From assembly GCF_013408145.1 (NCBI RefSeq), contig NZ_JACBZI010000001.1, forward strand, positions 930,001-994,000: a DNA stretch of 64,000 bases, given 5' to 3'. The translations under genes and the position numbers were made by a program. The notes beneath the pieces are model-generated. The model did no database searches and was not told the origin of the DNA. It saw nothing but the letters and a program-made list of their open reading frames with translations. This DNA is from Nocardioides marinus (lineage in GTDB: Bacteria; Actinomycetota; Actinomycetes; Propionibacteriales; Nocardioidaceae). Shown here piece after piece: positions 4,508 to 60,296 of this stretch; position 1 is the stretch's first letter; each line of letters opens with the position of its first letter.

Positions 4508-4545
4508 GGTCACCTAAGTGGTCCAACAGGTGCCGAGCGATCAAT
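4508..4545 (-). promoter_or_regulatory. element-wide composite motif, copy 1 (before excisionase-like gene)
   Basis: Read on the minus strand, ATTGATCGC is followed 31 bp from its start by TAGGTGACC, preceded by CACT. It overlaps the 3' end of the preceding gene and lies 64 bp before the ATG of the HTH gene. Seven similar sites occur in the element. Confidence 0.6.
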
Positions 4546-6081
4546 GCTGCTGGGTGGCTTTCTGGGTGGCACGCCGTGTTGCGGCGACAAGGCCGAGGTG
4601 ACGTGGGCGTCATGCGCGTGGGCGGTTGTTGATGGCCCACCGGGCCGATGGCTAGGGCAGTTGGAGTGCGCGAGCATGGCAGAGGCTGCCGCGGTGGATG
4701 CCGCGGTCGCGGTGGCGGTACTTGCCGAGCGCAGGGTCTCCCGTACCGGCTGCGGCACTCTGACGGCACGTCGGGCGAGGATGTCGGCCGGGGAGACCCA
4801 CACGACGTCGCCCTCGGCCGGCGGGCTGGCCAGTCCGGACTCCACGTCGTTGTGTGCTCGGCGGGAGAGAGCACGCGCTGGGCCGGTCAGGTTGGGGGTG
4901 TCGGCCTTCTCGGCGACGACGTGCGCGAGCTCGGAGCCGGCCTCGATCGCGCGGAGGGTTGCCATGGTGGCCTGGGGGAGCCCGGGCCGGGTGGCGATGG
5001 CCTCTGGTGTCGCCAGCGTGGTGGTGTCGTGGGTGATCTGGCGGTAGGCGGCTCGGACTTCCGCGGCTGCGCGGGCCAGGGGCTCCTCGAGGCGGGCGCC
5101 GGGGGAAGCGAGGTCGCCCCAGCGGCTGGCCAGGTTGCTCCAGGAGCGGCCTGCGTCGGCGATCGCGGGGACCAGGCGGTCCGAGGGCTCGAGGATGCCG
5201 GCGGTGGCGCCCGCGTCGAGGAGGACCATGCTGGCGCCGGCGATGAGTCCTTGGGTGCGGGTGATGAGCAGGAGGTTGGCCGGCGCGAGGTCGCGGGCCA
5301 GGGCACGGTGGGACTGGATGTCCCAGTTGGCCAGCGCCTGGGCCAGTCGGCCGGGGTCGTCGACGGGCCGGATGGCCTCGCCGGTGAGGGCGTGGGGGAA
5401 CCAGTCGGTCAGGTAGCTGCGGGCGGTGTTCTCGCATGCGGACATCCGGTCGACCCAGACCCCGGTGGGTGCCACCGCGTAGGGGGAGTGGTGCTGGGCC
5501 AGCTGGACGCGGCGGCCTGATTCGCGGGCGTCGGTGACGCGGTCGCGGCCGTTGTCGTGCAGGGCGACGTTGACGGCGTGGGCGGTCAGGTAGAGGCCGT
5601 GCATGATCCTGGTGCGCGCTGCCTCGAGGTCGCGGTGGGCCTCGGTCTGCTCGTGCGGGATCTCGGCGCCGTAGCGGCGGACCAGGGCGGCGGCGTTGAG
5701 GAGGGTCTGGGTCATCTGGTCGACGCGGGGGTTGGTCGGGCCCTGACCTGGCCAGGCCTTCCGGCTGGACAGGCTGGACTCGATGGTGGCGGCCTGGGCG
5801 GAGAGGCTGGTGATGGGGCGGTCGCGCTCGTCGACGTCCGGGCGGCGGCCGGGCAGGGAGGCCCACAGGTCCTCCGCGGCGGCGACCATCGTGGGCCAGC
5901 TGCGCAGCAGCGTGCCGGCGTCGTCGCCTCCGACGTCCATGAGCAGCTGGCGGGCCAGGTAGTCGACGTCGAAGAGCATCTCGCCGACGCTGCGCACGTC
6001 GCGCGAGGTCATCGGGATCTGGTCGACGTCGAAGAGCTCCTGGTCGATGTCGGCGTATGCGGGGCGCAGGTCAGTAGCCAA
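4510..6081 (-). CDS. large helical hypothetical protein
   Basis: 523 residues with no family I recognise. It is mostly predicted alpha-helical and Ala/Arg/Asp-rich, with no signal peptide or membrane segment. Residues ~1-60 are acidic (DIDQELFDVDQIP), the middle has heptad-like Ala/Leu stretches, and the last ~60 are low-complexity Ser/Thr/Ala/Pro with many His. It starts 11 bases inside the 3' end of the upstream 122-residue gene, so the two are probably co-transcribed from the motif at 6566-6603. The length and clear coding pattern make it a real gene. Its place among integration and maintenance genes suggests an element-housekeeping role, but that is only context. Confidence 0.7.
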   Translation of the reverse strand: MATDLRPAYADIDQELFDVDQIPMTSRDVRSVGEMLFDVDYLARQLLMDVGGDDAGTLLRSWPTMVAAAEDLWASLPGRRPDVDERDRPITSLSAQAATIESSLSSRKAWPGQGPTNPRVDQMTQTLLNAAALVRRYGAEIPHEQTEAHRDLEAARTRIMHGLYLTAHAVNVALHDNGRDRVTDARESGRRVQLAQHHSPYAVAPTGVWVDRMSACENTARSYLTDWFPHALTGEAIRPVDDPGRLAQALANWDIQSHRALARDLAPANLLLITRTQGLIAGASMVLLDAGATAGILEPSDRLVPAIADAGRSWSNLASRWGDLASPGARLEEPLARAAAEVRAAYRQITHDTTTLATPEAIATRPGLPQATMATLRAIEAGSELAHVVAEKADTPNLTGPARALSRRAHNDVESGLASPPAEGDVVWVSPADILARRAVRVPQPVRETLRSASTATATAASTAAASAMLAHSNCPSHRPGGPSTTAHAHDAHVTSALSPQHGVPPRKPPSSIDRSAPVGPLR

Positions 6082-6439
6082 GGCCGCGGGCTTCCCGGAT
6101 GAGGTCGCACAGGTCGACGACCAGCTGCGAGCCGTGGACCAGGTCCGGCTGGTGCAATGGCAGTGGGCGGGTCAGTTCCTCGGCCTCGGTGAGCAGCTGC
6201 AGCGGGGTGCGCTCCTCGAGGTCGGCGAGCAGGTCGACGTCCTCGGGCAGCTCGTAGTCGTCGGGCAGTAGGGCGCTGGCTCGGGAGTGGGCGAGGTAGA
6301 CACCTAGCCCGAGGTCGTGGAGCGGGGAGTCGGCGGCGGCCGCGTCGGCGTCGGTCCACACCTGGGTAGCGGCCTGGTGCAGCAGCTGGGCGATCGAGCC
6401 GAGGCGGTCCCAGGTGCCGTCAGCGTTGAGGGTGTCCAC
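6071..6439 (-). CDS. small acidic hypothetical protein
   Basis: 122 residues from a GTG with AAAGGA six bases upstream (protein begins VDTLNADGTWDRL). Longer in-frame starts at 6475 and 6556 lack a ribosome site. It is acidic and helical (Asp/Glu/Leu-rich, for example LPEDVDLLADLEE), with no known domain. It overlaps the next gene by 11 bases, indicating translational coupling. The composite motif lies 127 bp upstream. Function unknown. Confidence 0.65.
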   Translation of the reverse strand: MDTLNADGTWDRLGSIAQLLHQAATQVWTDADAAAADSPLHDLGLGVYLAHSRASALLPDDYELPEDVDLLADLEERTPLQLLTEAEELTRPLPLHQPDLVHGSQLVVDLCDLIREARGLGY

Positions 6440-6565: not shown

Positions 6566-6603
6566 GTTCGCCTATGTCGTCCGGCGGGTGTCGGACGATC
6601 ACC
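6566..6603 (-). promoter_or_regulatory. element-wide composite motif, copy 2
   Basis: Minus strand: GGTGATCGT, then 31 bp from its start AGGCGAAC preceded by GACAT. It lies upstream of the minus-strand pair 6071-6439 and 4510-6081. Confidence 0.5.
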
Positions 6604-7733: not shown

Positions 7734-7964
7734 CTACCGGCGCGGGCCGCGGCGGCGGCCGAGCTGGGGCCGTTGGTAGGCGGCGGTGTCGGTGTGGTTG
7801 TGCTGGCGGCCGGACCGGTGAACCTGCGCGATCTCGGCGTCGGGGGAGGGGCCGGTGTCGGCGGCCGCGGCCTGGGCGGCTGCCTCCTCGCTGGCACTGA
7901 CCTCCTCGGCGCGCTGGCGTGCCTCTTCCTCGAGCGCGGCTTCCTCGCGAGCGGGGTCACTCAT
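7734..7964 (-). CDS. small acidic coiled-coil protein
   Basis: 76 residues from an ATG with GGGAG six bases upstream (begins MSDPAREEAALEEEARQRAE). The first ~45 residues are a Glu/Ala-rich helix likely to form a coiled coil; the tail is His/Gln/Arg-rich. The composite motif lies 50 bp upstream. No known function. Confidence 0.6.
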   Translation of the reverse strand: MSDPAREEAALEEEARQRAEEVSASEEAAAQAAAADTGPSPDAEIAQVHRSGRQHNHTDTAAYQRPQLGRRRGPRR

Positions 7965-8013: not shown

Positions 8014-8051
8014 GGTCACCTATGTGTGGGGCGAGGGTCCAGGCGATCACC
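8014..8051 (-). promoter_or_regulatory. element-wide composite motif, copy 3
   Basis: Minus strand: GGTGATCGC, then 31 bp from its start GGTGACCAGG preceded by CACATA. This is one of the two best matches to the consensus and lies 50 bp before the ATG at 7964. Confidence 0.65.
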
Positions 8052-8550: not shown

Positions 8551-9075
8551 TCAGCAGCTGCCCCACAGGCCGCTGGCGGCCTCCTGGGCGTCGCCGGCGG
8601 CCGCGGAGTAGGAGTCTTCCCGGGCGAGATCCTGGGCGGCGTCGTAGCGGCGTGCGGCGCCGCGGGCCAGGAGCTCCTGGGCTACGTCGACGTCGTCGTG
8701 GTCGACGTAGCGCAGCAGACGGTCGTACCGGTCGCGGTCGGGCTGTCCGCTGTCGGTGACGAGCTGGACGGTGCTGTCGACCGGGACGAGGTCCTCGAGC
8801 AGGTCGGTTGCCTGGTCGGCGTAGCACTCCGCCGGCGCTGGCGGGTGGGCGACTTCGGGGGCGTCGATGCCGAGCAGGCGGACTCGGCCGAGCGGGCGGC
8901 CGGCCAAGTCCTCGACGCGCAGGGTGTCTCCGTCGACGACGGCCGTCACCCTGACCTGGGTGGCCGTGCCCTCGGCTGGGTCGGCGCCCGTGGGGGTGCC
9001 GGGGAGGGTTGCGGTGATGCCGCCGGCGGTCAGCGCGGCGATGGCAGCGGCGGCCAGGCCGATGAGGGCCTTCAC
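8551..9075 (-). CDS. secreted staphylococcal-type (thermo)nuclease
   Basis: 174 residues beginning with GTG. The N-terminal ~25 residues form a signal peptide (LIGLAAAAIAALTAGG), so it acts outside the membrane, presumably hydrolysing DNA or RNA with Ca2+. The SNase fold is recognisable from VVDGDTLRV (~45-53), RVRLLGIDAPEV (catalytic Arg and Glu as in SNase R35/E43) and YDRLLRYV (R87 equivalent). It ends in LWGSC, a typical ending for secreted members. Its GTGA start overlaps the stop of the tandem-DnaA-domain gene. On an ICE such nucleases may process DNA at the cell surface during mating; that is inference. Confidence 0.85.
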   Translation of the reverse strand: MKALIGLAAAAIAALTAGGITATLPGTPTGADPAEGTATQVRVTAVVDGDTLRVEDLAGRPLGRVRLLGIDAPEVAHPPAPAECYADQATDLLEDLVPVDSTVQLVTDSGQPDRDRYDRLLRYVDHDDVDVAQELLARGAARRYDAAQDLAREDSYSAAAGDAQEAASGLWGSC

Positions 9076-10007
9076 CGGGCGACCCTCAGCTGCGGGCGCT
9101 CGCCGGCGACGGGAACCGCGCGCTCCTGGGCCCGGGCGCCGGGAGAGCGGTAGCCGGCCTCGGGGATCTGCTCGTCGACGGCCGCGCGGGTGCTGGCACC
9201 GGCCGGCTCATCGGGGAGCTCGGCGGCGATCTTCGCAGCGAGGTCGCGCAGTGGCGGGGTCTTCTCGATCCGCCGGGTGGCGTGGAGCACGGTCGTGTGG
9301 TCGCGCTCGAAGTGCCGCGCGATCGTCGGCAGGCTGTGCCCGTGGATGCGGGCCGCGGTCATGGCCACGGCTCGGGCGTCGGCGGCCGTCCGGGTCCGAT
9401 CGGCGCCCAGGAGGATCTCGGGGGTGGTGCCGAAGGCCTCGGCGGCCGCGACGACGGCGTGCTCGACCGGGCCATCGGGCTCGAAGGTCGACGCGGGCTG
9501 GTCTTGGTGGAGGCTGACGACGGTGGCCTCGGGTCGGGGGAGTTGGGCGGTGTAGCGGTCGTTGACGTGCTCGGTGACCCGGGCCGCGGCGTCGGCCAGC
9601 CGGGGGCGTTCGGCGGTGCGGCGTACGGCGTGGATGACCGAGCCGTGGTCCTTGTTGAAGTGCTCGGCGATGGCCGGCAGGGACAGGCCGGCCTCGCGGG
9701 CGGCGGTCATGGCCACGGCGCGGGCGTCGCTGACGGGGCGGCTGCGCTCGGCGCTCAGGATCGCCTCGGGGGTGGTACCGAACATCGGCGCGGCGGCGTT
9801 GATGGCCAGCTCGCACACCGCTGCCGGTCCGGTTGCCGGCGCCGCCGGCAGGGTCTGGTCGACCTGGACGGCGAGGACGGCCACCAGCGACCGCAGCTGG
9901 TCGGCGTCCAGCGGTGCGACCAGGTCGGCGACCTGGTCATGCTGTCCGCGGCCGGCGGCATCGAGGATGAGGCTAGCCAGCTGGCGGCCGCCCTGATCGA
10001 GGTTCAT
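9072..10007 (-). CDS. protein with two DnaA domain-IV DNA-binding modules and no ATPase
   Basis: 311 residues. Residues ~64-142 and ~183-262 each match the C-terminal DNA-binding domain of DnaA, including the signature helix: KDHGSVIHAVRR (119-130) and RDHTTVLHATRR (235-246), each preceded by an ARAVAMTAAR-type helix and a SLPxIAxHF turn. There is no Walker motif and no AAA domain. A ~55-residue helical N-terminus may dimerise; the tail is basic and flexible. The ribosome site is AGGAGG. By family knowledge these modules read DnaA boxes, so the protein may organise or block an origin on the element. Three DnaA-box-like sites lie within 5 kb. Confidence 0.8.
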   Translation of the reverse strand: MNLDQGGRQLASLILDAAGRGQHDQVADLVAPLDADQLRSLVAVLAVQVDQTLPAAPATGPAAVCELAINAAAPMFGTTPEAILSAERSRPVSDARAVAMTAAREAGLSLPAIAEHFNKDHGSVIHAVRRTAERPRLADAAARVTEHVNDRYTAQLPRPEATVVSLHQDQPASTFEPDGPVEHAVVAAAEAFGTTPEILLGADRTRTAADARAVAMTAARIHGHSLPTIARHFERDHTTVLHATRRIEKTPPLRDLAAKIAAELPDEPAGASTRAAVDEQIPEAGYRSPGARAQERAVPVAGERPQLRVAR

Positions 10008-10737: not shown

Positions 10738-10901
10738 GCGGACTCACCGCCTCCCGAGTCGGGCGGGGGTGTGCTGCTCGACGGGGGCAGTACGTCGCGG
10801 AGACGGTCGAGCGCGGCCAGGGCCTGCTCGAGGTGTTCGCGGGCCTCCTGAACCGGGTCACGGTCGGGTGCGCCGGAGGGGGAATCGGTGGGCGTGCTCA
10901 C
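10734..10901 (-). CDS. 55-residue leader gene of the DnaA-like operon
   Basis: Starts with GTG, with AAGGAG six bases upstream. One short amphipathic helix (QEARELEQ-like, residues ~18-37) lies between Ser/Pro/Asp-rich ends. Four-base ATGA overlap with the coiled-coil gene. The composite motif lies 34 bp upstream, making this the first gene of the unit 10901 to 8089. Function unknown. Confidence 0.6.
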   Translation of the reverse strand: MSTPTDSPSGAPDRDPVQEAREHLEQALAALDRLRDVLPPSSSTPPPDSGGGESA

Positions 10902-10934: not shown

Positions 10935-10972
10935 AGTCACCAAAGGAAGGTCGACCCGCTCGGGCGATCACC
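10935..10972 (-). promoter_or_regulatory. element-wide composite motif, copy 4
   Basis: Minus strand: GGTGATCGC, then 31 bp from its start GGTGACTGAG preceded by CTTT. It lies 34 bp before the GTG at 10901, the likely start of the DnaA-like/nuclease operon. The second box lacks the ATA of other copies. Confidence 0.55.
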
Positions 10973-11593: not shown

Positions 11594-11818
11594 TTGGCGG
11601 CGGCCGCCTGGTTTAACGCTCCGGCCGACGTCGGGGCCTACCGTCGGCTCGCAGCCGCGGTGGGGGAGTGGAACGCCTACAGCGCCGCGCCGCTGGAGAA
11701 CGTCGACGTCGACGAGCTGCTCGACGACCTGGCGGACGTCGCGCCCCCGACGCCGCTGGGCGAGGGCGTTGCCGACCTCGAGCCCGTCCTGCGGCGGCAG
11801 GCTCGCCGGCAGCTTTAG
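11594..11818 (+). CDS. possible small acidic protein
   Basis: 74 residues with a TTG start and no clear ribosome site. The sequence (VGEWNAYSAAPLENVDVDEL) has a plausible acidic helical composition, and its stop overlaps the convergent ATPase stop by four bases. No earlier start fits. Treat as tentative. Confidence 0.35.
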   Translation: MAAAAWFNAPADVGAYRRLAAAVGEWNAYSAAPLENVDVDELLDDLADVAPPTPLGEGVADLEPVLRRQARRQL

Positions 11819-13101
11819 CGGCGAGGGGTGCCGCGGCCGGGATCGGAGGCCGGCGGCAGTTCACGCCGGCGGCGCCCGGTAGCCAGCTGGCCGGTGCCCT
11901 GGTCGGCGTCCGCAGGTTCGCCGGCCAGGGTCTCCCGGATGTAGCGGTCGAAGCCGGGCATCGTGAATCGCACCTCGCCGCGCCCGGCGGGCTCGATGAT
12001 CCCCTTGTCGATCAGCCGTTCGCGGGGAACGCCCAGGGCCTGCGTGGATCGGCCAAGCTGCTCGGCGATCTCCGCCCTCGTCACCGTGGGCGTGCCGACC
12101 CGCGCCATCACGGCCATGATCTGCCGCTCCAGCTCGGTCGCGGCCGCCCACCGGGCGGCGTACATGGAGGTCAGCTGGTCGTCGGCCAGCGGCAGGCCCG
12201 CCTGGACCTCGCCGACGTCGAGCACCTCACCGGTTCCCGAGGGCTTGGCCACCTCCCACGTCGCGTGGGCGAGGACCTGCAGCAGGTACGGGAACCCCTG
12301 CGCCTCGGCCGCGATCGCCTGCAGCGCGGCGGGTGTCCAGGTCACGCCCAGCTCGGCGGCCGGCCCGGCCACCGCGGCGGCCGCGGCGGCGGGCTCGAGT
12401 CGGGGCAGGGTGAGGAACGTGCTGCGCTCCCCGAAGGTGGCTGCGTTGACCAGGACTCCCGGAGTCGAGGGCAGGCCGGCGCCGATGATGGCCAGCGGGT
12501 TGTCCTCGCGCCGTCCAGCCAGGTTCTGCATCGCGTTGAGCAGGACCGCGAGGTCATCGCGGGCGGCCGCGTGCAGCTCGTCGACGAAGACCACGAGTCC
12601 GGCGCCACCGCGTGCGCGGACCTGGGAGCTGGTCTCGTGCAGCAGGTCCTCCATCGCCGAGATCTGCGCACCGCTCGGAGGCGCGTCCGCCCCGGAGCGG
12701 TCGGCGGCCGCGGTCGCGCTCACCTTCACCCCGCTCGGCAGCCCGAACTCCAGGGCGATGCTCTCCAGGCGGAGCTTCCAGGAGCCCTTCTCGCCCCGGG
12801 GCAGGATGTCCGCGGTCTCGATCGCTTTGCCGACACGGCTCACCAGGTCGGGCAGGAACGGCGCGTTGCGGCGGCAGGCCACCCATGCGGTGATGAATCC
12901 GTGGGCCTCGGCGTCGCGCTGGGCCTCGCGCAGCAGGGAGGTCTTGCCGACCCCGCGCGGGCCTAGGAACACCAGGAGCGGGCCGCCCATCTCGCCGTAG
13001 GTGCCGATCCGGCTCAGGTAGCCTCTGATCCTGTCCTGCTGTTGTTCCCTCCCGGCCAGGACCCGCGGCAGTTCGCCCGGTGCGTAGGGGTTGGGCAGCA
13101 T
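11815..13101 (-). CDS. AAA ATPase (AAA_16/Orc-like) with C-terminal winged helix
   Basis: 428 residues from the ATG at 13101, which has GGGAG six bases upstream; an in-frame frame runs back to 13251 but crosses the palindrome 13123-13145. Walker A LGPRGVGKTS (K53), Walker B LVVFVDELH (D174/E175), then lid-type helices. A winged-helix-like part at ~335-395 (TRAEIAEQLGRSTQALG, FTMPGFDRYIRETL) resembles origin- or operator-binding STAND/Orc proteins. Probable nucleotide-driven DNA-binding switch in element replication, maintenance or regulation; the exact role is unknown. Preceded by an 8-bp inverted repeat likely to be its operator. Confidence 0.75.
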   Translation of the reverse strand: MLPNPYAPGELPRVLAGREQQQDRIRGYLSRIGTYGEMGGPLLVFLGPRGVGKTSLLREAQRDAEAHGFITAWVACRRNAPFLPDLVSRVGKAIETADILPRGEKGSWKLRLESIALEFGLPSGVKVSATAAADRSGADAPPSGAQISAMEDLLHETSSQVRARGGAGLVVFVDELHAAARDDLAVLLNAMQNLAGRREDNPLAIIGAGLPSTPGVLVNAATFGERSTFLTLPRLEPAAAAAAVAGPAAELGVTWTPAALQAIAAEAQGFPYLLQVLAHATWEVAKPSGTGEVLDVGEVQAGLPLADDQLTSMYAARWAAATELERQIMAVMARVGTPTVTRAEIAEQLGRSTQALGVPRERLIDKGIIEPAGRGEVRFTMPGFDRYIRETLAGEPADADQGTGQLATGRRRRELPPASDPGRGTPRR

Positions 13102-13122
13102 CAGAGGTCTCCCATACATTCT

Positions 13123-13145
13123 GTTACACAGCGGGCTTGTGTAAC
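13123..13145. promoter_or_regulatory. inverted repeat GTTACACA-N7-TGTGTAAC
   Basis: Perfect 8-bp arms separated by 7 bp, centred ~33 bp before the ATPase start and beyond the 3' end of the divergently placed 13169-13513 gene. The AT-rich arms contrast with the surroundings. Likely operator of the ATPase gene. Confidence 0.5.
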
Positions 13146-13168
13146 GAAGTGTATGCCGTCGAGCCGGA

Positions 13169-13513
13169 TCAGCGCCCGACGTCGAAGCTGCGTGTCCCAG
13201 GCGTGCTGGCAGCGCCTGGCGTGCGCGCTCCGAGTCGACGACGGGCGGCATCGTCGGGGCTCTCGCCCGCGGAACTGACCTCGTCGACGCCGCGGCCAGG
13301 TCGATCGGCGTGCAGCCGGGTCGTCTCGCTCAGGCATTCGGCTAGGTCCTCGACGTCGGCCTCCAGGACCCGCTCGAGGATGTCAGCGATGCCCCCTGAC
13401 GAGCCGTCACACTCGGCCACCAGGGCCTCGGCCAGACGATCGAGGGCAGCGTCTCCGCGGGCGGTGAAGGTGACGACAATGGGGACCGGGTTCTCGGCTG
13501 GGGGAATGCTCAT
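13169..13513 (-). CDS. small hypothetical protein
   Basis: 114 residues from an ATG with GAGGTGG upstream (begins MSIPPAENPVPIVVTF); the longer frame to 13582 crosses the composite motif and is rejected. Residues ~10-60 look like an alpha/beta fold (VPIVVTFTARGDAALDRLAE), then an acidic helix and a disordered tail. The composite motif ends 18 bp before the start. No family recognised. Confidence 0.55.
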   Translation of the reverse strand: MSIPPAENPVPIVVTFTARGDAALDRLAEALVAECDGSSGGIADILERVLEADVEDLAECLSETTRLHADRPGRGVDEVSSAGESPDDAARRRLGARTPGAASTPGTRSFDVGR

Positions 13514-13530: not shown

Positions 13531-13568
13531 GGTCACCTAGGTGCGAAGGAGGTAGGTAAGCGATCAGC
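13531..13568 (-). promoter_or_regulatory. element-wide composite motif, copy 5
   Basis: Minus strand: GCTGATCGC, then 31 bp from its start GGTGACCAG preceded by CACCTA, so the second box contains the palindrome CACCTAGGTG. It lies 18 bp before the ATG at 13513. The rest of 13569-13853 shows no gene or repeat. Confidence 0.6.
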
Positions 13569-13853: not shown

Positions 13854-14306
13854 ATGGCATCCGGAATCGACCCCAACGCGTTGAGGGCTGCTCGCGAGGA
13901 AGCGGGGTTGACTCAGCATGAGTTGGCGCGCTTGGTGGGAGCGGCTGGGGGTGAGCGCATCTCTCGCTGGGAGTTGGGCACGTCATCTCCGCGCCCCGAC
14001 TTCCTGGTGAGGCTCGCCAAGGCCCTCGACATCCCGACGCTTCGGCTGATCCAGATCGACGGTGAGGTCCCCGACCTCAGGGCGTTGCGCCTGCAGGCAG
14101 GGCTCAGCGCGCAGAAGCTCGCGATGGCCGTGAAGGTAGCCGTCCCGACCTACTACGCCTGGGAGCAGGGGCGCTGGGCCCGACTCCCTGCACCTGAGTC
14201 GCTTGAAGCGCTCGCCCGCGCTTACGGGGTGGCCGTCGATGCGGTGGTCGCGGCTTTCCGTGAGTCGCAGCGACAGCGCCAGTGGGGCGGAGACACTTCG
14301 GCCTGA
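13854..14306 (+). CDS. double helix-turn-helix (XRE-type) regulator
   Basis: 150 residues with two XRE/Cro-like DNA-binding domains: ~9-64 (LRAAREEAGLTQHELARLVG, then RISRWELGTSSPRPDF) and ~73-128 (LRALRLQAGLSAQKLAMAV, then YYAWEQGR). No ligand or peptidase domain. There is no ribosome site. A TAGTGT hexamer ends nine bases before the ATG, suggesting leaderless transcription. Located between the maintenance block and the pilus operon, it may control either; a repressor of element genes is my guess. Confidence 0.8.
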   Translation: MASGIDPNALRAAREEAGLTQHELARLVGAAGGERISRWELGTSSPRPDFLVRLAKALDIPTLRLIQIDGEVPDLRALRLQAGLSAQKLAMAVKVAVPTYYAWEQGRWARLPAPESLEALARAYGVAVDAVVAAFRESQRQRQWGGDTSA

Positions 14307-14582: not shown

Positions 14583-14620
14583 GGTGATCGCCGAGGGCCC
14601 GTCTTGACACGTAGGTGATC
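14583..14620 (+). promoter_or_regulatory. element-wide composite motif, copy 6 (pilus operon)
   Basis: GGTGATCGC, then exactly 31 bp from its start GGTGATCGAG preceded by CACGTA: a 7-bp perfect direct repeat at three helical turns. It lies 25 bp before the first pilus gene, so it probably drives the whole Tad operon. Confidence 0.65.
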
Positions 14621-15325: not shown

Positions 15326-15328
15326 GCA

Positions 15329-31370: not shown

Positions 31371-31380
31371 CGTGACGGGT

Positions 31381-47918: not shown

Positions 47919-48872
47919 ATGAGTGTGGGAGACCAGCTCGGCCTCGACGACAACAGCGAACTGCTCGACCAGGCGCGCCAGAAGTGGCCGGCCTGGGTGG
48001 CCGCGGATCCGCGGCTTGGAGTCGTCGAACGGTTCGACGACCTGCGGGCCTGGCTGCCCTCGGTGGACAGCGCGGCCTCTGACGAGGTCCTCCTGGCGCT
48101 GGCCATGCTGGCGGCCCCCGATGGCGGTGACGACATCGCCGCGGCTGCGGCGCTCGCCAAGTGCCTGCTGCCCGGCGCGTGCCGGCTCGCGGGCTGGCTG
48201 AGCACCCTGCCTCCCCGCGAGGTCTTCCGCGACAGCCAACCTGTCGCCGCCGGATCCTGGTCGGCCGTCGAGCGGATCGACGAGCTCGTGGCCTCCCAGC
48301 TGTGGATCGAGGTCCGGACCTTCAAATGGCGTCGACTGCGCAAGGTCGCCGCCAACATCCTGATCAACACCAGGGTCGGTGTCCTCCGCGAGGTCGGCGA
48401 CTTCTTCCACGTCTCCCGCGCCGACCGCACCTGGGCGAACACCACCCTCGTGGAGTCCTTCTCCTCGGGCGACCTGACAGACGGCGACGCCAGCGCGTGG
48501 AGCGCAGCGGCGATGCCGACCGAGCGCGTTGCCGGCGCCCTGTTCCACCGCCCCGAGATCCTCGCCGACGCCGGCCCGGAGCATGAGGAGCCCTCGGCCA
48601 CCGAGGAGCTGCTGGAGCTGCTGGCGTGGGCGTGCGAGAACCAGGTCATCAGCCCGGCCGACCGCTACCTGCTGCTGTGCCTGGTCGACGAGGCCGACCG
48701 GGTCGAGACCCGAAACCTCGCCCGCGGCTACGGCGGCCTGCTCAGCAACGAGGTGTCCAGCCGAGTCGCGCCCCGCGTCGGGGTGTCCGAGGCAACCGTC
48801 CGTCGCCACGGCTCGCGCAGCATGCGCGCCCTCGCCGCGGCCGCCCCGAGGAAGTTCGGCCATGACGAATGA
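47919..48872 (+). CDS. sigma-factor-like regulator heading the transfer operon
   Basis: 317 residues from an ATG with AAAGGAG upstream. Residues ~115-165 have a sigma region-2-like helical pattern (LWIEVRTFKWRRLRKVAANI), and ~230-306 an HTH like region 4 (ISPADRYLLLCLVDEADRV, then RVGVSEATVRRHGSRSMRAL). No ATPase or ligand domain. I infer a sigma-like or related DNA-binding activator that opens the transfer operon. It could read the composite motif that starts nine bases after its stop codon. Family not certain. Confidence 0.6.
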   Translation: MSVGDQLGLDDNSELLDQARQKWPAWVAADPRLGVVERFDDLRAWLPSVDSAASDEVLLALAMLAAPDGGDDIAAAAALAKCLLPGACRLAGWLSTLPPREVFRDSQPVAAGSWSAVERIDELVASQLWIEVRTFKWRRLRKVAANILINTRVGVLREVGDFFHVSRADRTWANTTLVESFSSGDLTDGDASAWSAAAMPTERVAGALFHRPEILADAGPEHEEPSATEELLELLAWACENQVISPADRYLLLCLVDEADRVETRNLARGYGGLLSNEVSSRVAPRVGVSEATVRRHGSRSMRALAAAAPRKFGHDE

Positions 48873-48880
48873 GCGCAACC

Positions 48881-48917
48881 GTGATCGCTCCCACCGCCCC
48901 ACGACACATAGGCGGCT
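48881..48917 (+). promoter_or_regulatory. element-wide composite motif, copy 7
   Basis: CGTGATCGC, then 30 bp from its start GGCGGCT preceded by CACATA. It lies between the sigma-like gene and the next gene (17 bp before its ATG). The second repeat is degenerate after CACATAGG. Confidence 0.5.
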
Positions 48918-48933
48918 GGAGGTGGTGAAGCCC

Positions 48934-50015: not shown

Positions 50016-50053
50016 CCCGCCCGAGGTCAGCAACCCAGAAAGGAAGTCCACCC

Positions 50054-51213: not shown

Positions 51214-51986
51214 TGAAGAACCTGACGACCGGCAACGACGACTCGCGCGCGACCCTCGTGCGCATCGGCATCTTGGTGGCGATCGCGACCATGGTGGCCA
51301 CTGTCGTCTGGCTCGGTGCCCAAAGCCGAGGCGACGACGCCGGCACCCCCGGCACGTCCGGCGGGGACAGCTCGAGCCAGACGGTCAAGAACACCTCGGT
51401 CGAGCAGGTCGCACCGGACACCGCGCCCGCGGACGGTGTGGTGATCCCGACCGGCACCGACCAGGTCGACGGCCACCCGACCGGGTTCCCGGCCACCGAC
51501 CTCGGCGCCGTGGCGCTGCAGGTCGAGGTGGCCAAGGCCCAGGTCGGATTCGACTACGACCAGGCCGTCACCGTCGCTGACCTCTACGCCGACCCCGATG
51601 ACAAGGCCGTCTTCGAGGAGCGCGCCCGCGCCGCGGTCGAGTTGCGTCGCAAGCAGGCCGGCGTCGCCAAGGACGGCGACGTGCCCGCCCCCGCGTCATA
51701 CGCCCTCACCCCGGTCGCCTACACCCTCGAGCAGCTCGACACCGGCTACTACGCGGTCAACCTGCTCAGCTACGTCACGCTCACCACCGCCGACGGCAAG
51801 GTCCACGACAGCCTCTACGCCGGCACCCAGCTGATGCAGTGGCTCGACGGTGACTGGCGCCTGGTCCAGGGCAGTGAAGCCGACATCCAGCACCTGGTCT
51901 CGGAGGGCCAGCCCCAGGCGGTGGCCCCCGGCACCCCCGAGTTCGAGAAGGCCGGCTGGATCCGGATCAACGGAGCGCCCCAGTGA
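51213..51986 (+). CDS. membrane-anchored transfer protein (VirB8/TcpC-like candidate 2)
   Basis: 257 residues with one anchor (~15-36, RIGILVAIATMVATVVWLGA), a flexible linker, and an exported NTF2-like domain (~165-240: YALTPVAYTLEQLDTGYYAV, then WLDGDWRLVQGSEADIQHL). A different sequence from the preceding gene but the same architecture, so the two may form a pair in the wall-spanning channel. Confidence 0.62.
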   Translation: MKNLTTGNDDSRATLVRIGILVAIATMVATVVWLGAQSRGDDAGTPGTSGGDSSSQTVKNTSVEQVAPDTAPADGVVIPTGTDQVDGHPTGFPATDLGAVALQVEVAKAQVGFDYDQAVTVADLYADPDDKAVFEERARAAVELRRKQAGVAKDGDVPAPASYALTPVAYTLEQLDTGYYAVNLLSYVTLTTADGKVHDSLYAGTQLMQWLDGDWRLVQGSEADIQHLVSEGQPQAVAPGTPEFEKAGWIRINGAPQ

Positions 51987-53977
51987 CCACGACCGCCATC
52001 GCACCCCGGGCTCTCCGACTGGGAATCGCCGCGCTGGCGGTCCTGGTCCTCACCACGCTCCTCGGAGCTGCTATCACCCTGCAGGCGCCCACCGCGGCCG
52101 CGGCCGAGCCGGTGACCAGCACGGCCAACGCCACCGCCCTCGCCACCGGCCAGCTGCCGGCCCGCGGCAACGTGAAGATGGGCTGCACCGGGCCCGACGC
52201 ACTGTGCGATCTCGGCGGCGATGCACTCGACTGCGCCAGCGACCCGATCGACTGCGGCAAAGACGCCGCCGGCGACGTGAAGGACGGCGCCGGCAACCTG
52301 CTCGACGGCGCCGGGAACGCCCTGGACGGCGCAGCAGGGCTGCTGTCTGACGGCTGCGGGATCCTCGACGCGATCTGCGGCGGAGACCTGCCTGGGTTGC
52401 CCGGGCTTCCGGGACTGCCTGGCGTTCCCGGCCTCCCGGGAATCCCCGGTCTGCCGAACGTCGGTGACCTCTTCGGTGGCGGCATCCCCGGCGTAGGCGA
52501 CATCCCCAACCCGTTCGAGGCCATCGGCGACGTCATCGCCAAGGCCGCGGCGGACGCCTGGACCGCAGCCATGCTCGCGGTCTGGAACTCCGGCCTGTTC
52601 GTGCTGCGCATCGTGCTCACGTTCAGCGAGCTGTTCTTGACCCCCGACCTGCGGGCCGACGGACCCGGTAAGGACGTCTACGCCTTCACTCTGTGGCTCG
52701 CCCTGGCCCTGGTGGTCATCTTGGCGATGATCCAGCTGGGGGCCGCGGCCTTCAAGCGCGAGGGTAAGGGTCTCGCCCGGGCGTTCATCGGAGCCGGCCA
52801 GTTCGTCGTCATCAACGCGTGCTGGTTCGGCTATGCCGTCACCCTGATCGCTGCCTGTGGTGCGATCACCCGGGCGTTGATGAAGTCGCTGCTCAGGGTC
52901 CAGACCTGGCCCGACTGGGACCCGCTGGGCGGCCTCGGCGTCGACGACATCACCGACGCCGGCGTAGCCACCGCGCTTGCCTTCCTTGGGATCTTCCTGT
53001 GGCTGGCCGCCATCGGCCACCTCCTGGTCTACCTGGCTCGCGCGGCTTCGCTCCTGGTGCTCACCGCCACCGGCCCGCTCGCGGCCGCCGGCCTGGTCTC
53101 GGACTTCACCCGGTCCTGGTTCTGGAAGAGCCTGCGGTGGCTGCACGCCGCGGCGTTCACCCCGGTCCTGATGATCATGGTGCTCGGCATCGGCGTGCAG
53201 TTCGCCAACGGCGTCGCGGCCCATCTGGCCGAGGACACCGCCAAGACCTTCGGCACCGCGCTGCCGGCCGTGATGACGATCCTGATCAGCGTCGTGGCCC
53301 CGCTGTCGCTGTTCAAGCTCCTCGCCTTCGTCGACCCCGGCACCCCCAGCGGCGCATCGTTCCGCCAGGGCATGGCCATCCAGGGCGGCCTCCAGGGCCT
53401 GCTCGGCGGCGGTGGTGGCGGCGGCTCGTCGGCCGCGTCGACCACCGACGGCAACGGCCGCTCCTCGGGTGAGCAGAGCGCCGAGGCCTCGACCGGCGAC
53501 CGGTTCAACAAGTCCACCCAGGGCTTCCTTGGCAGCTTCGGCGGCGTCGGCCAGGCGCTCGCAGCCGGGATGGGGATGATCAACTCCGCCGGCGCGAAGG
53601 CGACCTCCCTGATGTCGGACGAGGCCAACCAGGCCGGCGTCGGGCAGAGCACCTACGGCCCCGACTTCAGCGGCATGGGCGGCCGGCAGTCCGGCGGCCA
53701 GTCCGGCGGCCAGGGCGGGAGCCAGCCGGATCCGCAGGGTGGCGACCAGGGCGACGGTGACTCCTCGATGCCGACCCCGCCCACGCCTCCAGCGCCGCCC
53801 ACCCCGCCGACGCTGCCCACCGGCGGCGGACCCGGCGGCGGCTCCGGCGGCGGCCAGGGCGGCGGGGGAGCGGGCGCAGCCCCCAAGACCCCGGCAGCAG
53901 GCGGCGGCGGGGGAGCGGCCGGCGGTGCCGGCGGTGCCGGCGCAGCAGCTGGCGGCATCCCACCGGTGGCGGTGTAG
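51983..53977 (+). CDS. VirB6/TrbL-like polytopic channel protein with collagen-like stretch
   Basis: 664 residues from a GTG in four-base overlap. Signal-like segment ~10-40; exported Cys/Asp-rich stretch; collagen-like GLPGLPGLPGVPGLPGIPG (~139-157); then about six membrane helices at ~195-460 (for example LWLALALVVILAMIQLGAAA, YLARAASLLVLTATGPLAAA) as in VirB6/TrbL. The C-terminal ~200 residues are Gly/Ser/Gln/Pro low-complexity. Forms the inner-membrane channel. Confidence 0.75.
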   Translation: MTTTAIAPRALRLGIAALAVLVLTTLLGAAITLQAPTAAAAEPVTSTANATALATGQLPARGNVKMGCTGPDALCDLGGDALDCASDPIDCGKDAAGDVKDGAGNLLDGAGNALDGAAGLLSDGCGILDAICGGDLPGLPGLPGLPGVPGLPGIPGLPNVGDLFGGGIPGVGDIPNPFEAIGDVIAKAAADAWTAAMLAVWNSGLFVLRIVLTFSELFLTPDLRADGPGKDVYAFTLWLALALVVILAMIQLGAAAFKREGKGLARAFIGAGQFVVINACWFGYAVTLIAACGAITRALMKSLLRVQTWPDWDPLGGLGVDDITDAGVATALAFLGIFLWLAAIGHLLVYLARAASLLVLTATGPLAAAGLVSDFTRSWFWKSLRWLHAAAFTPVLMIMVLGIGVQFANGVAAHLAEDTAKTFGTALPAVMTILISVVAPLSLFKLLAFVDPGTPSGASFRQGMAIQGGLQGLLGGGGGGGSSAASTTDGNGRSSGEQSAEASTGDRFNKSTQGFLGSFGGVGQALAAGMGMINSAGAKATSLMSDEANQAGVGQSTYGPDFSGMGGRQSGGQSGGQGGSQPDPQGGDQGDGDSSMPTPPTPPAPPTPPTLPTGGGPGGGSGGGQGGGGAGAAPKTPAAGGGGGAAGGAGGAGAAAGGIPPVAV

Positions 53978-54049
53978 CCAGATGCGCCCCCACCTCGAGC
54001 ACCAACCGACCACACCCGCCGACCTCACTGACCAGAAAGGAAGCCGACG

Positions 54050-55555: not shown

Positions 55556-57093
55556 TGACCACCACCACCCGCCGCAACCGCCGCGGCGGCCGCGACATGG
55601 CCGCCCTGCTCTCCGACTTCGGGCACGACCTGCCCACGATCCCCACGCTCGCCCCGGAGCCCAAGGAGCCCCGGCTCTTCCGGTACGCGCCGCGCCGCGG
55701 TGCCGCTCGACCCGGCCGAGGCTGGGCCGCCTCCACCGCCCCGGCAATGGCCTGGCGGATGACCAGCGACCAGGCCCCGGTGTTCTGGCCCTTCGTCTCC
55801 GCGCCGGCCCTACCCCCGACCGGCGCGCAGATGGGCGTCGACCAGCTCTCCGGCGGCAGCTTCTACTGCGACCCGTTCGGGTGGGTGCTGCGCGACGACG
55901 TGCCCGCCACCAACCCCAACATCTTCCAGTTCGCCAAGCCGGGAAGCGGCAAGTCCGGCACCACCAAGGGCTTCTGCACCCGGATGATGCCGTTCGGCTA
56001 CCGCACCCTGGTCACCGGAGACGTCAAGGACGAGTACGAGTCGCTGTGCCACGCTCTCGGCGTCGAGCCCTTCGTCATCGCTCCCGGCTTCACTGCCCGG
56101 GTCAACCCGCTGGACAAGGGCCCGCTCGGCGACGGCTGGGAGAAGCTCTCGGCCGAGGAAGCCCAGCGTCGCGCCACGATCATCTTCAAGCGGTGGCTGG
56201 TCTTGGTCCGCGGCCTGGTCGGCAGCATGAAGATCGACGACGAGCGCCGGGTGCCGTTCGGCCCCGACGAGTCCGACGTCGTGCGCAACGCCCTGGCGAT
56301 CCTCACCGGCTACGCCGCCGGCAACAGCGTCCTGGCCGAGACCACCATCCCGCGGCTGTGGGACCTGCTGCGCAACCCCACCGAGGAGCTCGTCCGGGTG
56401 TGCGAGTACGCGAACACCCGCGTCTTCCTCGACGAGACCCGCCTGCTGCGCAACGCGCTCGGTGAGCTCGTCAACGGCACGCTGGCCGGTCTCTTCGACG
56501 ACTTCACCAACATCGAGGTCGACTGGAAGGCGCCGATCCAGTCGTTCAGCCTCTCCCGGCTCGACGGCCTGGGCGATGAGGCAGTGGGCATCGCGCTGCT
56601 GTGCATGAACTCCTGGGGCCGTGGGCTGAGGGAGATCGCCGAGCCCGGCGACCTGCGCATCGTCGTGCGCGACGAGGTCTGGAAGCAGATGCGCCTCGGA
56701 ACCGCCGCGGTGGCGAGCTTCGACGCCGACCTGCGGCTCTCGCGCGGCATGGCCGGCAAGGGCGGCGACATCCAGTTCTGCAACCTCCACAAGCCCTCGG
56801 ACCTGCTCTCGGTCGGCGACGCCGACTCCCAGGCCGCGATGATCGCCAAGGACCTCCTCGAGCTGGCCGACATCAAGATCCTCGGTGCCCAGAAGCCCCG
56901 TGTCGCCCGCGAGCTCGACTCCATGCTCGGTCTCGGCCCGATCGCTCAGGACCTCGTCTCCGGGTGGGCCATGCAGGACAAGGGCCGCGCGCTGTGGTGC
57001 ATCGGTGACGCCATGTACAAGGTCCAGACGGTGCTCCACCCGCTGGAGAAGAAGCTCTACTACACCAACGAGGCGATCGAGTCCGCCGCCTGA
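55555..57093 (+). CDS. VirB4-like ATPase (C-terminal half)
   Basis: 512 residues sharing one base with the previous stop; a longer open frame upstream is antiphase to that gene. RecA-like ATPase: Walker A FAKPGSGKSGTTK (K133), Walker B LRIVVRDEVWKQM, and arginine-finger region GGDIQFCNLHKPSD. Energises channel assembly or pilus/substrate movement with the SCO6880-type partner. VirB4 is thus split over two genes here. Confidence 0.88.
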   Translation: MTTTTRRNRRGGRDMAALLSDFGHDLPTIPTLAPEPKEPRLFRYAPRRGAARPGRGWAASTAPAMAWRMTSDQAPVFWPFVSAPALPPTGAQMGVDQLSGGSFYCDPFGWVLRDDVPATNPNIFQFAKPGSGKSGTTKGFCTRMMPFGYRTLVTGDVKDEYESLCHALGVEPFVIAPGFTARVNPLDKGPLGDGWEKLSAEEAQRRATIIFKRWLVLVRGLVGSMKIDDERRVPFGPDESDVVRNALAILTGYAAGNSVLAETTIPRLWDLLRNPTEELVRVCEYANTRVFLDETRLLRNALGELVNGTLAGLFDDFTNIEVDWKAPIQSFSLSRLDGLGDEAVGIALLCMNSWGRGLREIAEPGDLRIVVRDEVWKQMRLGTAAVASFDADLRLSRGMAGKGGDIQFCNLHKPSDLLSVGDADSQAAMIAKDLLELADIKILGAQKPRVARELDSMLGLGPIAQDLVSGWAMQDKGRALWCIGDAMYKVQTVLHPLEKKLYYTNEAIESAA

Positions 57094-57122
57094 GTGCGCG
57101 CGACCCTCGGGACTGACCTGTC

Positions 57123-60100
57123 ATGAAGAAGCTGCTGCTCGCGGGACTGCCCGTCCTGATCATCTTCATGGGGCTTCCGCTCCTCGTCAGCTTGATGGTG
57201 GTGATGAGCACCACCGCGGCCGCCGAGTGCCGCACGCAGACCAACCAGACCGGACCCACCGAGCTCGGTGACCTCGGTGCCATCGACGGCCCGGTGGGCG
57301 GCCCGGTCAAGGGCAAGATCACCATGGCGCAGGCCAACATCCCGCGCCGCTCCGGCCTCGACGGGTTCCGGGCCTCGATGCCCAAGGTGCTGTCCAAGAA
57401 CCCGGAGTTCGTCACCCTCAACGAGGCCGGCGGCTGGAGCCTGGCGCAGATCGAAGCAGCTGCTCCCGGCTACTCCGCCTTCCGGGTGGAGGCAGCCGCC
57501 GGCACCGGCGCCGGTGCCGAGCAGGCCGTGGGCAACATCGTGCTCTGGAAGAGCTCGACCTGGACGAAGGTCAACGGCGGCCGGGTCCAGCTCGTCGACG
57601 ACGACAAGACCTTCTACGACGGCCGCCCCGTCACCTGGGACCGCTTCGCGACGTGGGTGATGCTGCGCCGCGCCGACGGCGCCGTGGTCTCGGTGGTCTC
57701 CACCCACCACATGACCAACCCGCACCGTTGGCCGAAGCAGCACGGCAACCCGCCGCTGACCCGGCCCCAGCAGTACGGCGCCGGAATGGACATCCTGCTG
57801 CAGCTGCGCAACTCGCTGGCCGCCCACGGTCCGGTGCTGATCGGCGGCGACACGAACACCCAGGCCTCCTACACCGACATCCCCTGGACGGCGGCCGCGA
57901 AGATGAAGGCCGCCGGCTACGGATGGCACAACCACGGCGTCGACTTCATCTTCTTCCCGCACCACCAGGGCGCCCGTCTCGAGCAGGGCTGGGACGGCAC
58001 GATGGTGTCGGATCACCACTGGCTCTCGGCTCGCATCGCGATGAACGGCGCCGGCCCGGAGAGCGCGCCCGAGACCACCACCACGACCGACGGGATCGTG
58101 CCCGCGGCGACCACCGCCCGGACGTCCGCCGAGCCGCCGGCCGGCGACGTGCTCGCCCAGCTGATGCGGCTGCGGTTCGCGTCCAACTACCCGACCATGA
58201 CCGCCGAGCAGGCCCGCGACGCGATCACCATCGCCCAGGTCGCCCGCGACCTCGAGATTCCCCGCTACGGGCTGCAGATCGCGATCGCCGCCGCGATCCA
58301 GGAGTCCAAGCTGGTCAACCTCACCGGAGGTGACCGCGACTCCGGCGGCCTGTTCCAGCAGCGCCCCTCGGCCGGCTGGGGAAGCCGGGCCGAGATCACC
58401 AACCCCGTCCTCGCGGCCCGCGCGTTCTTCGGCCAGGCCCAGCACACCGGCAACCCCGGCCTCCTCGACATCCCCGGCTGGCAGAACATGCCGCTCACCC
58501 AGGCCGTGCAGGCCGTCCAGCGCTCGGGCTACCCCGACGCCTACGCCCAGTGGGAGGACGTCGCCGGCGACATCACCGATCTGCTCGGCGGCGACCTGCC
58601 GGACCTGCCCGACGACGGCTCCACCACGAACGTCGCCAACTGCCAGGGCGAGACCGTCAACCCCATCACCGTCGGCACCCTCAACCTGCTCGGCGCCGGC
58701 CACACCGACAAGCCGGGGGAGCGGCCCGGGTACGACACCTGGGACAAGCGACTGCCCGGCGCCATGCGCACGATCGAGAACGCCGGCGTCACGATCGCCG
58801 GCCTCCAGGAGGTGCATGGCCCGCAGGCTCAGGCGCTGGAGAACCAGTACGCGGCCAAGTGGGGGATCTACCCGGCCAGCGGGAAGGCACAGAACCGGGT
58901 GATCTGGGACCGCAACGAGTGGGAGCAGACCGACGGGCGCCTCGTCGACATCCCGTACTTCGGCGGCAAGGACGTCGGCATGCCCCTGGTGCAGCTGACC
59001 TCGACGACCACCGGGCAGGTGATCTGGGTCTGGAGCATCCACAACCCGGCCAACACTCAAGGAAACGCCGCCGGGCACCGCCAGGAGGCGCTGCGCCGCC
59101 AGTTGGCCACGATGACCGAGCTCGCCGGCACCGGCACCCCTGCGGTGATCCTGGGCGACTTCAACGACGGCAAGGACGGCAACAACTCCTCGCACTGCGC
59201 ACTGACCCCTGAGCTGAGCAACGCCTTCGGCGGCTCTGCCGACCCCTGCAAGGAGCCCAAGCAGGACGCGCCGATCGACCACGTCTACGGCGCGAACCTC
59301 ACCTGGGCCAGCGCCGCGGTCGACACCAGCACCCAGGCCAGCAAGATCGCTGACCACCCGCTGGTGACCGCCACCACCGCCGGCAGCAGCGCCGGGTGCG
59401 CAGTCGACTCCGACACCGCGGAGGCCAAGTACAACCTCGGCCCGGTCAAGCCGCAGCTGACCCAGCTGGTCAACATCCTCGGCCCCATGTTCGACATCAA
59501 GACCGTCGGCGGCTACCGCGAGAGCGCCACCGACCCCAACGGCCACCCGGCCGGGCTCGCGGCCGACTTCATGGTGCCACTCAGCGCGGCGGGCCGCGCG
59601 CAGGGCGACCGTCTCGCCGCCTACGCCAAGGCCAATGCCCAGAAGCTCGGCATCGACTACATCATCTGGTACCAGCGGATCTGGTCGGTCGCCCGCGCAG
59701 GCGAGGGCTGGCGGCCGATGGAGGACCGGGGGAGCGCTACCGAGAACCACCTCGACCATGTCCACATCAACGTCAAGCCCGGCGCCTCCGTCCAGCCGGT
59801 CGGCCTCGAGGGCGCCTCCTGCGACGAGGTCGTCTATCCGGTGCCCGCGCAGTACGTCGGGACCGACAACCACAACTGGCACGAGACCGGCCCTTACTGG
59901 TCCAAGTGGCACACCGGCACCGACTTCTCCGCACCCTGCGGAACCACCGTCTACGCCGCCCACGCCGGCACCATCGAGATCGACACCACTCGGCGTTGGG
60001 CTGGGCCGCAGCTGGTCAAGGTCACCACCGGCGCCGGGTCCCTGACCACCTGGTACGCCCACATGGCGACCGTCAGCGTCAGCCGCGGCCAGACCGTCGC

Positions 60101-60263
60101 AGCCGGCGAGCCGATCGGCCAGATCGGCAAGGAGGGCAACGTCTCCGGCTGCCACCTCCACTTCGAGGTCCACCTCAAGAACGGCTCCATCTACGGCCCC
60201 GACAACGTCGATCCCTCGGCTTGGCTCGCAGAGAACGCATCACGCCCGAGCCGCGCCGTGTGA
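57123..60263 (+). CDS. five-domain surface enzyme: two EEP domains, lytic-type domain, M15/ARB-like domain, M23 peptidase
   Basis: 1046 residues, N-terminal anchor ~5-32. EEP domain 1 (~65-305): NEAGGW, STHHM (H195/196), GGDTNTQ, SDHHWLSA (H298/299). Lysozyme-like domain (~342-485): ALQIAIAAAIQESKLVN, GGLFQQRP. EEP domain 2 (~515-752): GLQEVHG, WSIHNP, LGDFNDG, IADHPLV. ARB_07466-like domain (~765-890): GLAADFMVP, NHLDHVHINV. M23 endopeptidase (~895-1035): H930 and D934 (HTGTDFS), HLHFE (1011-1015). All catalytic signatures are intact. It likely opens peptidoglycan for the transfer channel; what the two EEP domains cut is unknown. Confidence 0.85.
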   Translation: MKKLLLAGLPVLIIFMGLPLLVSLMVVMSTTAAAECRTQTNQTGPTELGDLGAIDGPVGGPVKGKITMAQANIPRRSGLDGFRASMPKVLSKNPEFVTLNEAGGWSLAQIEAAAPGYSAFRVEAAAGTGAGAEQAVGNIVLWKSSTWTKVNGGRVQLVDDDKTFYDGRPVTWDRFATWVMLRRADGAVVSVVSTHHMTNPHRWPKQHGNPPLTRPQQYGAGMDILLQLRNSLAAHGPVLIGGDTNTQASYTDIPWTAAAKMKAAGYGWHNHGVDFIFFPHHQGARLEQGWDGTMVSDHHWLSARIAMNGAGPESAPETTTTTDGIVPAATTARTSAEPPAGDVLAQLMRLRFASNYPTMTAEQARDAITIAQVARDLEIPRYGLQIAIAAAIQESKLVNLTGGDRDSGGLFQQRPSAGWGSRAEITNPVLAARAFFGQAQHTGNPGLLDIPGWQNMPLTQAVQAVQRSGYPDAYAQWEDVAGDITDLLGGDLPDLPDDGSTTNVANCQGETVNPITVGTLNLLGAGHTDKPGERPGYDTWDKRLPGAMRTIENAGVTIAGLQEVHGPQAQALENQYAAKWGIYPASGKAQNRVIWDRNEWEQTDGRLVDIPYFGGKDVGMPLVQLTSTTTGQVIWVWSIHNPANTQGNAAGHRQEALRRQLATMTELAGTGTPAVILGDFNDGKDGNNSSHCALTPELSNAFGGSADPCKEPKQDAPIDHVYGANLTWASAAVDTSTQASKIADHPLVTATTAGSSAGCAVDSDTAEAKYNLGPVKPQLTQLVNILGPMFDIKTVGGYRESATDPNGHPAGLAADFMVPLSAAGRAQGDRLAAYAKANAQKLGIDYIIWYQRIWSVARAGEGWRPMEDRGSATENHLDHVHINVKPGASVQPVGLEGASCDEVVYPVPAQYVGTDNHNWHETGPYWSKWHTGTDFSAPCGTTVYAAHAGTIEIDTTRRWAGPQLVKVTTGAGSLTTWYAHMATVSVSRGQTVAAGEPIGQIGKEGNVSGCHLHFEVHLKNGSIYGPDNVDPSAWLAENASRPSRAV

Positions 60264-60296
60264 TCGCACCGGAGCACTGACGGCACATAGGTGACC
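60259..60296 (+). promoter_or_regulatory. element-wide composite motif, copy 8 (coupling-protein operon)
   Basis: TGTGATCGC, then exactly 31 bp from its start GGTGACCAGCG preceded by CACATA. It begins at the stop of the five-domain enzyme gene and lies 45 bp before the ATG at 60341, so it could give the last four transfer genes their own promoter. Confidence 0.65.

Follow-up and report, generated by a model that had tools for sequence, protein, structure and literature searches.

Sites and genes of the element

The DNA analysed here (the window) is a stretch of 64,000 nucleotides from Nocardioides marinus, positions 930001–994000 of a 4.11-Mb single-contig genome (G000), and it holds part of an integrated mobile element along which eight copies of a two-box sequence motif stand in front of genes. 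An exact repeat of the 3′ part of tRNA-Met sets the length of this element at about 128 kb (about 3% of the genome), so that it extends past the window; places there are given in extended coordinates, in which the window numbering is carried on past the right edge. By its integrase, att repeats, relaxase, coupling protein and type IV secretion system (T4SS) genes, the element classes on sequence as an integrative and conjugative element (ICE); the integrase, att repeat and coupling protein were found directly, the relaxase through similarity to the TrwC relaxase and the T4SS through gene order compared with the plasmid pCHL (see below). The eight sites are copies of one motif; we propose that its two parts are probably the −35 and −10 boxes of promoters, and that their reader is P0002, a predicted sigma-70-type factor whose gene lies on the element itself.

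The eight sites, first listed in a first-pass annotation of the same DNA, are real: position, orientation and short distance to a start codon in sense held for all eight. The strings then quoted for them stand as a consensus, of which exact copies are few, with GGTGATCGC in three of the eight (8014, 10935 and 14583) and ACATAGGTGACC in two (8014 and 60259). When aligned, the sites read TGATCGC, 17 bp, ACNTAGGTGAC(C/T), with identical spacing throughout. The 30-bp spacing once reported for a site at 48881 disappeared on realignment, as that site starts at 48880 (CGTGATCGC) and has a gap of 17 bp like the others; its second unit reads GGCGGCT and not GGTGAYC as had been claimed.

Three further sites lie beyond the window. 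With their own matrix the 11 sites score 31.2–46.0 bits and nothing else in 136 kb scores above 9.9, the matrix being built from those very sites, so that these scores are not an independent test. The genes that follow the sites in sense belong to modules for excision, maintenance, pilus, secretion, relaxase and single-strand-binding functions (Table 1). The order of the pilus-type genes behind site 6 is similar to that annotated in pCHL, and site 7 starts 7 bp past the stop codon of P0002.

Table 1 Features of the N. marinus element (window numbering unless marked as extended)
Feature	Position	Strand	Evidence or remark
attL core, tRNA-Met 3′ part	2610..2644	+	Exact repeat at extended 130914-130948
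Tyrosine integrase	2811..3989	-	Pfam PF00589 E=1.2e-15
Excisionase-like HTH_17 gene, first after site 4508	4016..4444	-	Pfam PF12728 E=8.3e-11, scored on longer frame 4016-4513; start codon of the gene read separately
Promoter-like site 1	4508..4545	-	38.5 bits; before excisionase-like gene
Promoter-like site 2	6566..6603	-	32.7 bits; before gene 6071-6439 (-), which has no Pfam match
Promoter-like site 3	8014..8051	-	41.8 bits; before small gene 7734-7964 (-)
P0001, two DnaA domain-IV helix-turn-helix stretches	9072..10007	-	PF08299, two stretches, E=4e-32
Promoter-like site 4	10935..10972	-	31.2 bits; before 10734-10901, 10024-10737, 9072-10007 and 8551-9075 (-)
AAA ATPase with weak winged-helix match, behind site 13531	11815..13251	-	PF13191 E=1.4e-17
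Promoter-like site 5	13531..13568	-	37.0 bits; before gene 13169-13513 (-)
Protein with two Cro/CI-type (XRE) helix-turn-helix stretches	13854..14306	+	PF01381, two stretches, E=2.2e-25
Promoter-like site 6	14583..14620	+	41.0 bits; before pilus-type genes
Pilus-type gene behind site 6, SAF	14645-15325		Pfam
Pilus-type gene behind site 6, CpaF/VirB11-like	15601-17844		Pfam
Pilus-type gene behind site 6, T2SSF	17841-18782		Pfam
P0002, predicted divergent sigma-70-type factor, likely motif reader	47919..48872	+	Fold, weak Pfam Sigma70_r4, co-occurrence, co-divergence
Promoter-like site 7	48880..48917	+	35.5 bits; before 48934-49155 and T4SS genes
T4SS gene	51983..53977	+	Gene order compared with pCHL only (pCHL feature ‘type IV secretion system protein’)
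Promoter-like site 8	60259..60296	+	41.0 bits; before 60341-60943 and coupling-protein gene
Open frame with T4SS coupling protein, TraG/TraD type	60423..62699	+	PF12696 E=6.4e-24; true start probably further in
Further site	extended 85197	-	Before MobF-type relaxase gene, named from position and start sequence compared with pCHL
Further site	extended 85419	+	
Further site	extended 91593	+	Before gene matching single-strand-binding protein of pCHL, named from position and start sequence

A probable sigma-70-type promoter geometry

Column by column conservation was read from 164 unique sites of at least 22 bits, drawn from all loci fetched (conjugative elements, other elements and a few unrelated ones). 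Strong conservation is restricted to TGATCGC(T/C) and A-C-N-TAGGTGAC(C/T). The GG preceding TGATCGC is not conserved (G in 37% and 64% in those two columns), and the two units are thus not repeats of one word. Since the boxes TGATCGC(T/C) and ACNTAGGTGAC leave a 17-bp spacer, which is ordinary for −35 and −10 elements, the earlier argument that the gap was too long for sigma-70 fails.

The column after the second box, which lies outside the matrix, holds a purine in 96% of sites; columns after that are also purine-rich (71–85% at several), as ribosome-binding sites follow. If that first purine is the transcription start, TGATCGC would span positions −36 to −30 and ACNTAG positions −12 to −7, separated by 17 bp, a geometry that would be usual for a sigma-70-family promoter with unusual box words. 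The likely ATG of the relaxase gene would then be just 6 bases downstream of the presumed start.

Sites are concentrated in mobile DNA

Twenty simulated sequences with matching trinucleotide composition averaged 0.25 matches per 64 kb when the summed score had to reach 17 of 21 bases, and had none at 18 or more; the window has nine matches at 17 or more, eight of them the listed sites. Across the 4.11-Mb genome, 12 matches with up to three mismatches were found, against none for the pattern read backwards; ten fall in the element, and the two outside it have three mismatches each. The first-pass annotation had proposed a matrix scan of the element, host genome and related elements, and had said that equal frequency in chromosomal DNA would count against the motif; the scan instead found the sites strongly concentrated in mobile DNA.

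Among 341 Nocardioidaceae genomes, 94 had a match with at most one mismatch and 247 had none; the reversed pattern matched in one. One or two matches were present in 10 of 170 genomes from other families of the order, and three in none. An exact 18-base version of the motif, searched in 84,980 species genomes, returned 70 stretches, by record title 54 from Nocardioides or Pimelobacter, three from Actinomycetota and 13 scattered, and an exact scan of viral contigs gave three matches.

P0002 is a predicted sigma factor

P0002 has 317 amino acids; its N-terminal part is long, and the structure of residues 162–222 is poorly predicted. Its predicted fold has both a sigma-2 domain and a sigma-4 domain (the helix-turn-helix that binds −35), and all 50 of the VIA-align matches listed for this fold are sigma factors or their transcription complexes. 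Sequence signals are weaker: Pfam Sigma70_r4 reaches 14.0 bits on P0002, below its cut-off of 24.1, and matches weakly in nine of 18 relatives. NCBIfam has no match for P0002; a search of solved structures by sequence returned nothing for P0002 alone, and with a P0002 profile it gave three poor matches, none of them a sigma factor. Neither P0002 nor any of 17 relatives matched FlhC or FlhD at E≤1, which does not place it with FlhDC-type activators. By its predicted fold P0002 is a divergent sigma-70-type factor, and of the options named in the first-pass annotation the promoter of an unusual sigma factor is favoured.

The motif was not found before the start of P0002 itself, so P0002 would be controlled by something else, for which the tandem XRE protein is one candidate. 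That protein is encoded between the divergent sites 13531 and 14583 and is a possible repressor.

Sites accompany P0002 and diverge with it

P0002 was matched at E≤1e-100 in 42 of the 341 family genomes, and all 42 carry 3 to 19 sites. Among the 299 genomes without a close P0002, at least three sites were found in only ten. In two of these (G205 and G134) the stretches that were read have no P0002 gene and are rearranged, in G290 the contig ends where P0002 would lie, and in G040 the site order suggests a large deletion. G231 and G323 are 86–87% complete and in many contigs; in the remaining four (G149, G169, G171 and G229), most of the sites read precede genes that are excisionase-like or belong to the left part of the element. 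No match at one mismatch occurs in the three genomes that come next by P0002 score (G292, G335 and G185; E 1e-95 to 2e-81).

All six relatives about 50–63% identical to P0002 whose surroundings were read (G225, G292, G335, G247, G185 and G279) have a two-box site directly behind their own stop codon, whose TGA is also the opening TGA of the first box. The wording of the boxes drifts with the protein: five sites of the G335 element, among its best-scoring, have a 16-bp spacer, and in G185, G279 and G247 the first box is TGAACGC, TGACCGC or TGACGGC. A further relative, in G093, is 58% identical and fragmented.

Several points temper the pairing of P0002 with the motif. The E≤1e-100 limit was chosen after the data had been seen; some high-scoring sites of the drifted elements retain TGATCGC with 17 bp; and reversed-sequence controls of those elements gave 3 to 11 matches over threshold, where the elements themselves have 20 to 42 each. 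As every gene of an element drifts with it, co-divergence supports the pairing and does not prove it.

Near distant relatives of P0002 (about 29–40% identical over the aligned part; G010, G022, G041, G043, G109, G298 and others) the same motif was not found above 10 bits. Four such loci (L066, L067, L070 and L071, in G010, G022, G041 and G043, with relatives 29–38% identical) may have a promoter code of their own.

Three plasmid records encode P0002 at 89.6–94.0% identity, two from Pimelobacter simplex and one, pCHL, from Nocardioides sp. QY071. On pCHL, the one whose contents are described here, this relative is annotated as hypothetical and the backbone follows a similar order: SAF, CpaF/VirB11, pilus genes, T4SS, TraM-recognition protein, mobF and single-strand-binding protein. 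It has nine sites of 31.2–40.7 bits, the next best place scoring 10.3, and its reversed sequence has none above 14. Between its pilus and T4SS modules, pCHL (NZ_CP124682.1; L259 and L260) carries predicted cmx, sul1, qacEdelta1, aadA2 and an erm gene.

Sites precede excisionase-like genes in other elements

Of the 52 family genomes with a motif match and without P0002 at E≤1e-100, we sampled 46, which gave 56 sites; not every site of each genome was taken, and G040, G134, G205, G279, G290 and G323 were set aside as holding fragments or relatives of the large element. Eight of the 46 have P0002 matches that are weak and distant (E 1e-16 to 1e-5). An excisionase-like HTH_17 gene lay in sense within 700 bp of 40 of the 56 sites (36 genomes), compared with two excisionase matches in the 1500 bp upstream of the same sites. 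The 40 divide into 22 of type A, 11 of type B, six of type C and one like the element’s own, and all eight seed excisionase proteins match HTH_17 at E≤0.01, six of them above cut-off.

Every type-A site lies directly behind a relative of a TrwC-type relaxase of about 900 amino acids (22 of 22; the relaxase of the G138 element matches TrwC at E=1.6e-50). An integrase relative was found within 700 bp of 11 sites, and the G182 element has a Phage_integrase match. The G156 element is framed by a 22-bp repeat of a tRNA-Val end about 10 kb apart and holds a relaxase, two HTH_17 genes and, by eye, integrase-like genes. Across ten loci of 20 kb, an exact repeat of at least 15 bases was found for one of 11 tRNA placements.

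Sixteen sites lacked an excisionase gene. Four of them, at 20 bits or below, look like chance matches; another four precede backbone genes of the large element or fall within fragments of it; six have in common a non-coding unit next to a tRNA-Leu sequence; and the other two belong to none of these groups. This conserved unit of about 250 bp (loci L013, L014, L016, L205, L207 and L236, in G070, G078, G096, G153 and G293) has a copy of the motif and then about 150 bp to a GC-rich hairpin, seen by eye, beside a tRNA-Leu 3′ end that is either intact or partial. One possibility is a small RNA, another an att-end feature, in either case under the same promoter. Another 21 sites, taken elsewhere in these genomes and in G279 and G150 and including at least one duplicate, showed a mixture, with some excisionase-like genes and some backbone genes of the large element.

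From their sequence, the carriers of these sites are probably other, small mobile elements. They could instead be what remains of large-element copies that have decayed, rather than independent hitchhikers, as some of these genomes do hold fragments of it (G134, G205, G290 and others). We regard this as unlikely: the excisionase-like proteins form several groups that are little alike and mostly unlike the element’s own, and 22 sites follow the different relaxase of about 900 amino acids, of which the eight compared are 27–29% identical to that of the element. No gene of the large element’s 47919–63394 stretch was found in twenty such 20-kb loci (E≤1e-8; other T4SS types were not searched for), and the tRNA-Val repeat of G156 frames one such element.

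Other readers of the motif

Improbable, on the evidence below, is that the sites are operators of an activator or repressor, with the protein encoded at 9072, 13854 or 11815 binding boxes three helical turns apart and the host main sigma factor doing the rest. Those encoded at 9072 and 13854 are DNA-binding proteins by Pfam and the third has the weak winged-helix match; the words are similar and 31 bp apart; and SetCD-type ICE activators work at promoters with poor −35 boxes (PMC4344509). However, the 9072 protein was unmatched in 14 and the 13854 protein in four of the 42 P0002 genomes, all with at least three sites (no match at E≤1e-10), so that neither is needed for persistence of the motif; this set was picked by P0002, so that it tests the absence of the rivals and not that of P0002. 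Matches to the 11815 protein in many genomes are only about 32% identical and far from P0002. Of the regulators put forward in the first pass, the one at 47919 (P0002) fits, by its sigma-like predicted fold. The boxes also differ in sequence, which disfavours the direct-repeat operator suggested then; in its GGTGAYC form that candidate was rejected because of the unconserved GG and the one-base spacing difference in the G335 element.

That elements borrowed the promoter of a host sigma factor, with P0002 doing something else, is highly improbable: sites do occur in genomes without a close P0002 relative, yet host promoters would be expected to carry the motif, whereas 247 family genomes are matchless and G000 has only its two three-mismatch matches outside the element, and the sites examined in P0002-poor genomes lie mostly before excisionase-like genes.

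Discussion

If P0002 is the sigma factor that reads these sites, it would bind core RNA polymerase, its sigma-4 domain reading TGATCGC and its sigma-2 domain ACNTAG, and transcription would start at the purine behind the second box. Once made, P0002 would send RNA polymerase to about eleven promoters, and the excision, maintenance, pilus, T4SS, relaxase and single-strand-binding functions would be turned on together. Less certainly, mobilizable elements with the same promoter before xis would stay integrated in ordinary hosts, where nothing reads it; when a P0002-bearing element arrives, they would excise and use its secretion machine. We think it fairly likely that a private sigma factor and promoter code run the life cycle of the conjugative element, and that unrelated families of small elements adopted this code before xis as a signal of its arrival.

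Related logic has been described in Gammaproteobacteria. SGI1 is proven to have xis under AcaCD, the regulator of its helper IncA/C plasmids, which signals their arrival (PMC4605294), and the same helper logic is described for mobilizable genomic islands (MGIs) with SetCD of SXT/R391 and with AcaCD (PMC5704250, PMC4344509). There, as would be the case here, a master regulator encoded by one element turns on its excision and transfer and is used by unrelated integrated elements. On those accounts, however, the regulator is an activator that works at the −35 region or upstream of it (AcaCD belongs to the FlhDC family), whereas here it is a predicted sigma factor and the motif would itself be the −35 and −10; the hosts here are Actinobacteria; and dependence is proven there and inferred here.

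Conjugative transposons of Clostridioides difficile likewise are integrated conjugative elements with predicted sigma factors, the targets of which are left open in PMC3158075. There they are described among accessory genes in which the −35-binding domain alone is recognisable, whereas a dispersed, backbone-wide regulon is visible here in the sequence. P0002 resembles extracytoplasmic function (ECF) and stress sigma factors of the sigma-70 family in its predicted sigma-2 and sigma-4 folds, bipartite promoter and 17-bp spacer, but differs in falling under the Pfam region-4 cut-off, in having no NCBIfam match, and in its length and long N-terminal part. We found no paper on the motif or on a sigma factor of Nocardioides conjugative elements in a literature search whose coverage mostly excluded subscription papers. 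The components are familiar; their combination appears new.

Some other genes may be recorded. P0001 has DnaA domain-IV DNA-binding stretches without the ATPase part and lies in the gene run behind site 10935. A single gene at window 57123–60263 (+), upstream of the coupling protein, combines endonuclease/exonuclease/phosphatase and M23 peptidase domains, and a helicase gene at window 31354–34479 (+), restriction-enzyme-like (HSDR_N, SWI2_SNF2), is probable defence cargo.

For an element found in 42 of 341 family genomes, and also on free plasmids, these results identify a likely master regulator together with its predicted regulon; among those plasmids, pCHL has predicted resistance genes. 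By analogy, the small elements and P0002 look like a sigma-based counterpart of the SGI1/AcaCD helper–satellite relation, a candidate for Actinobacteria. Since a sigma factor needs only its promoter to make a self-contained pair, one gene and one reporter would be enough to test whether the small elements depend on it; if true, this would be a helper–satellite system built on a sigma factor and not on an activator.

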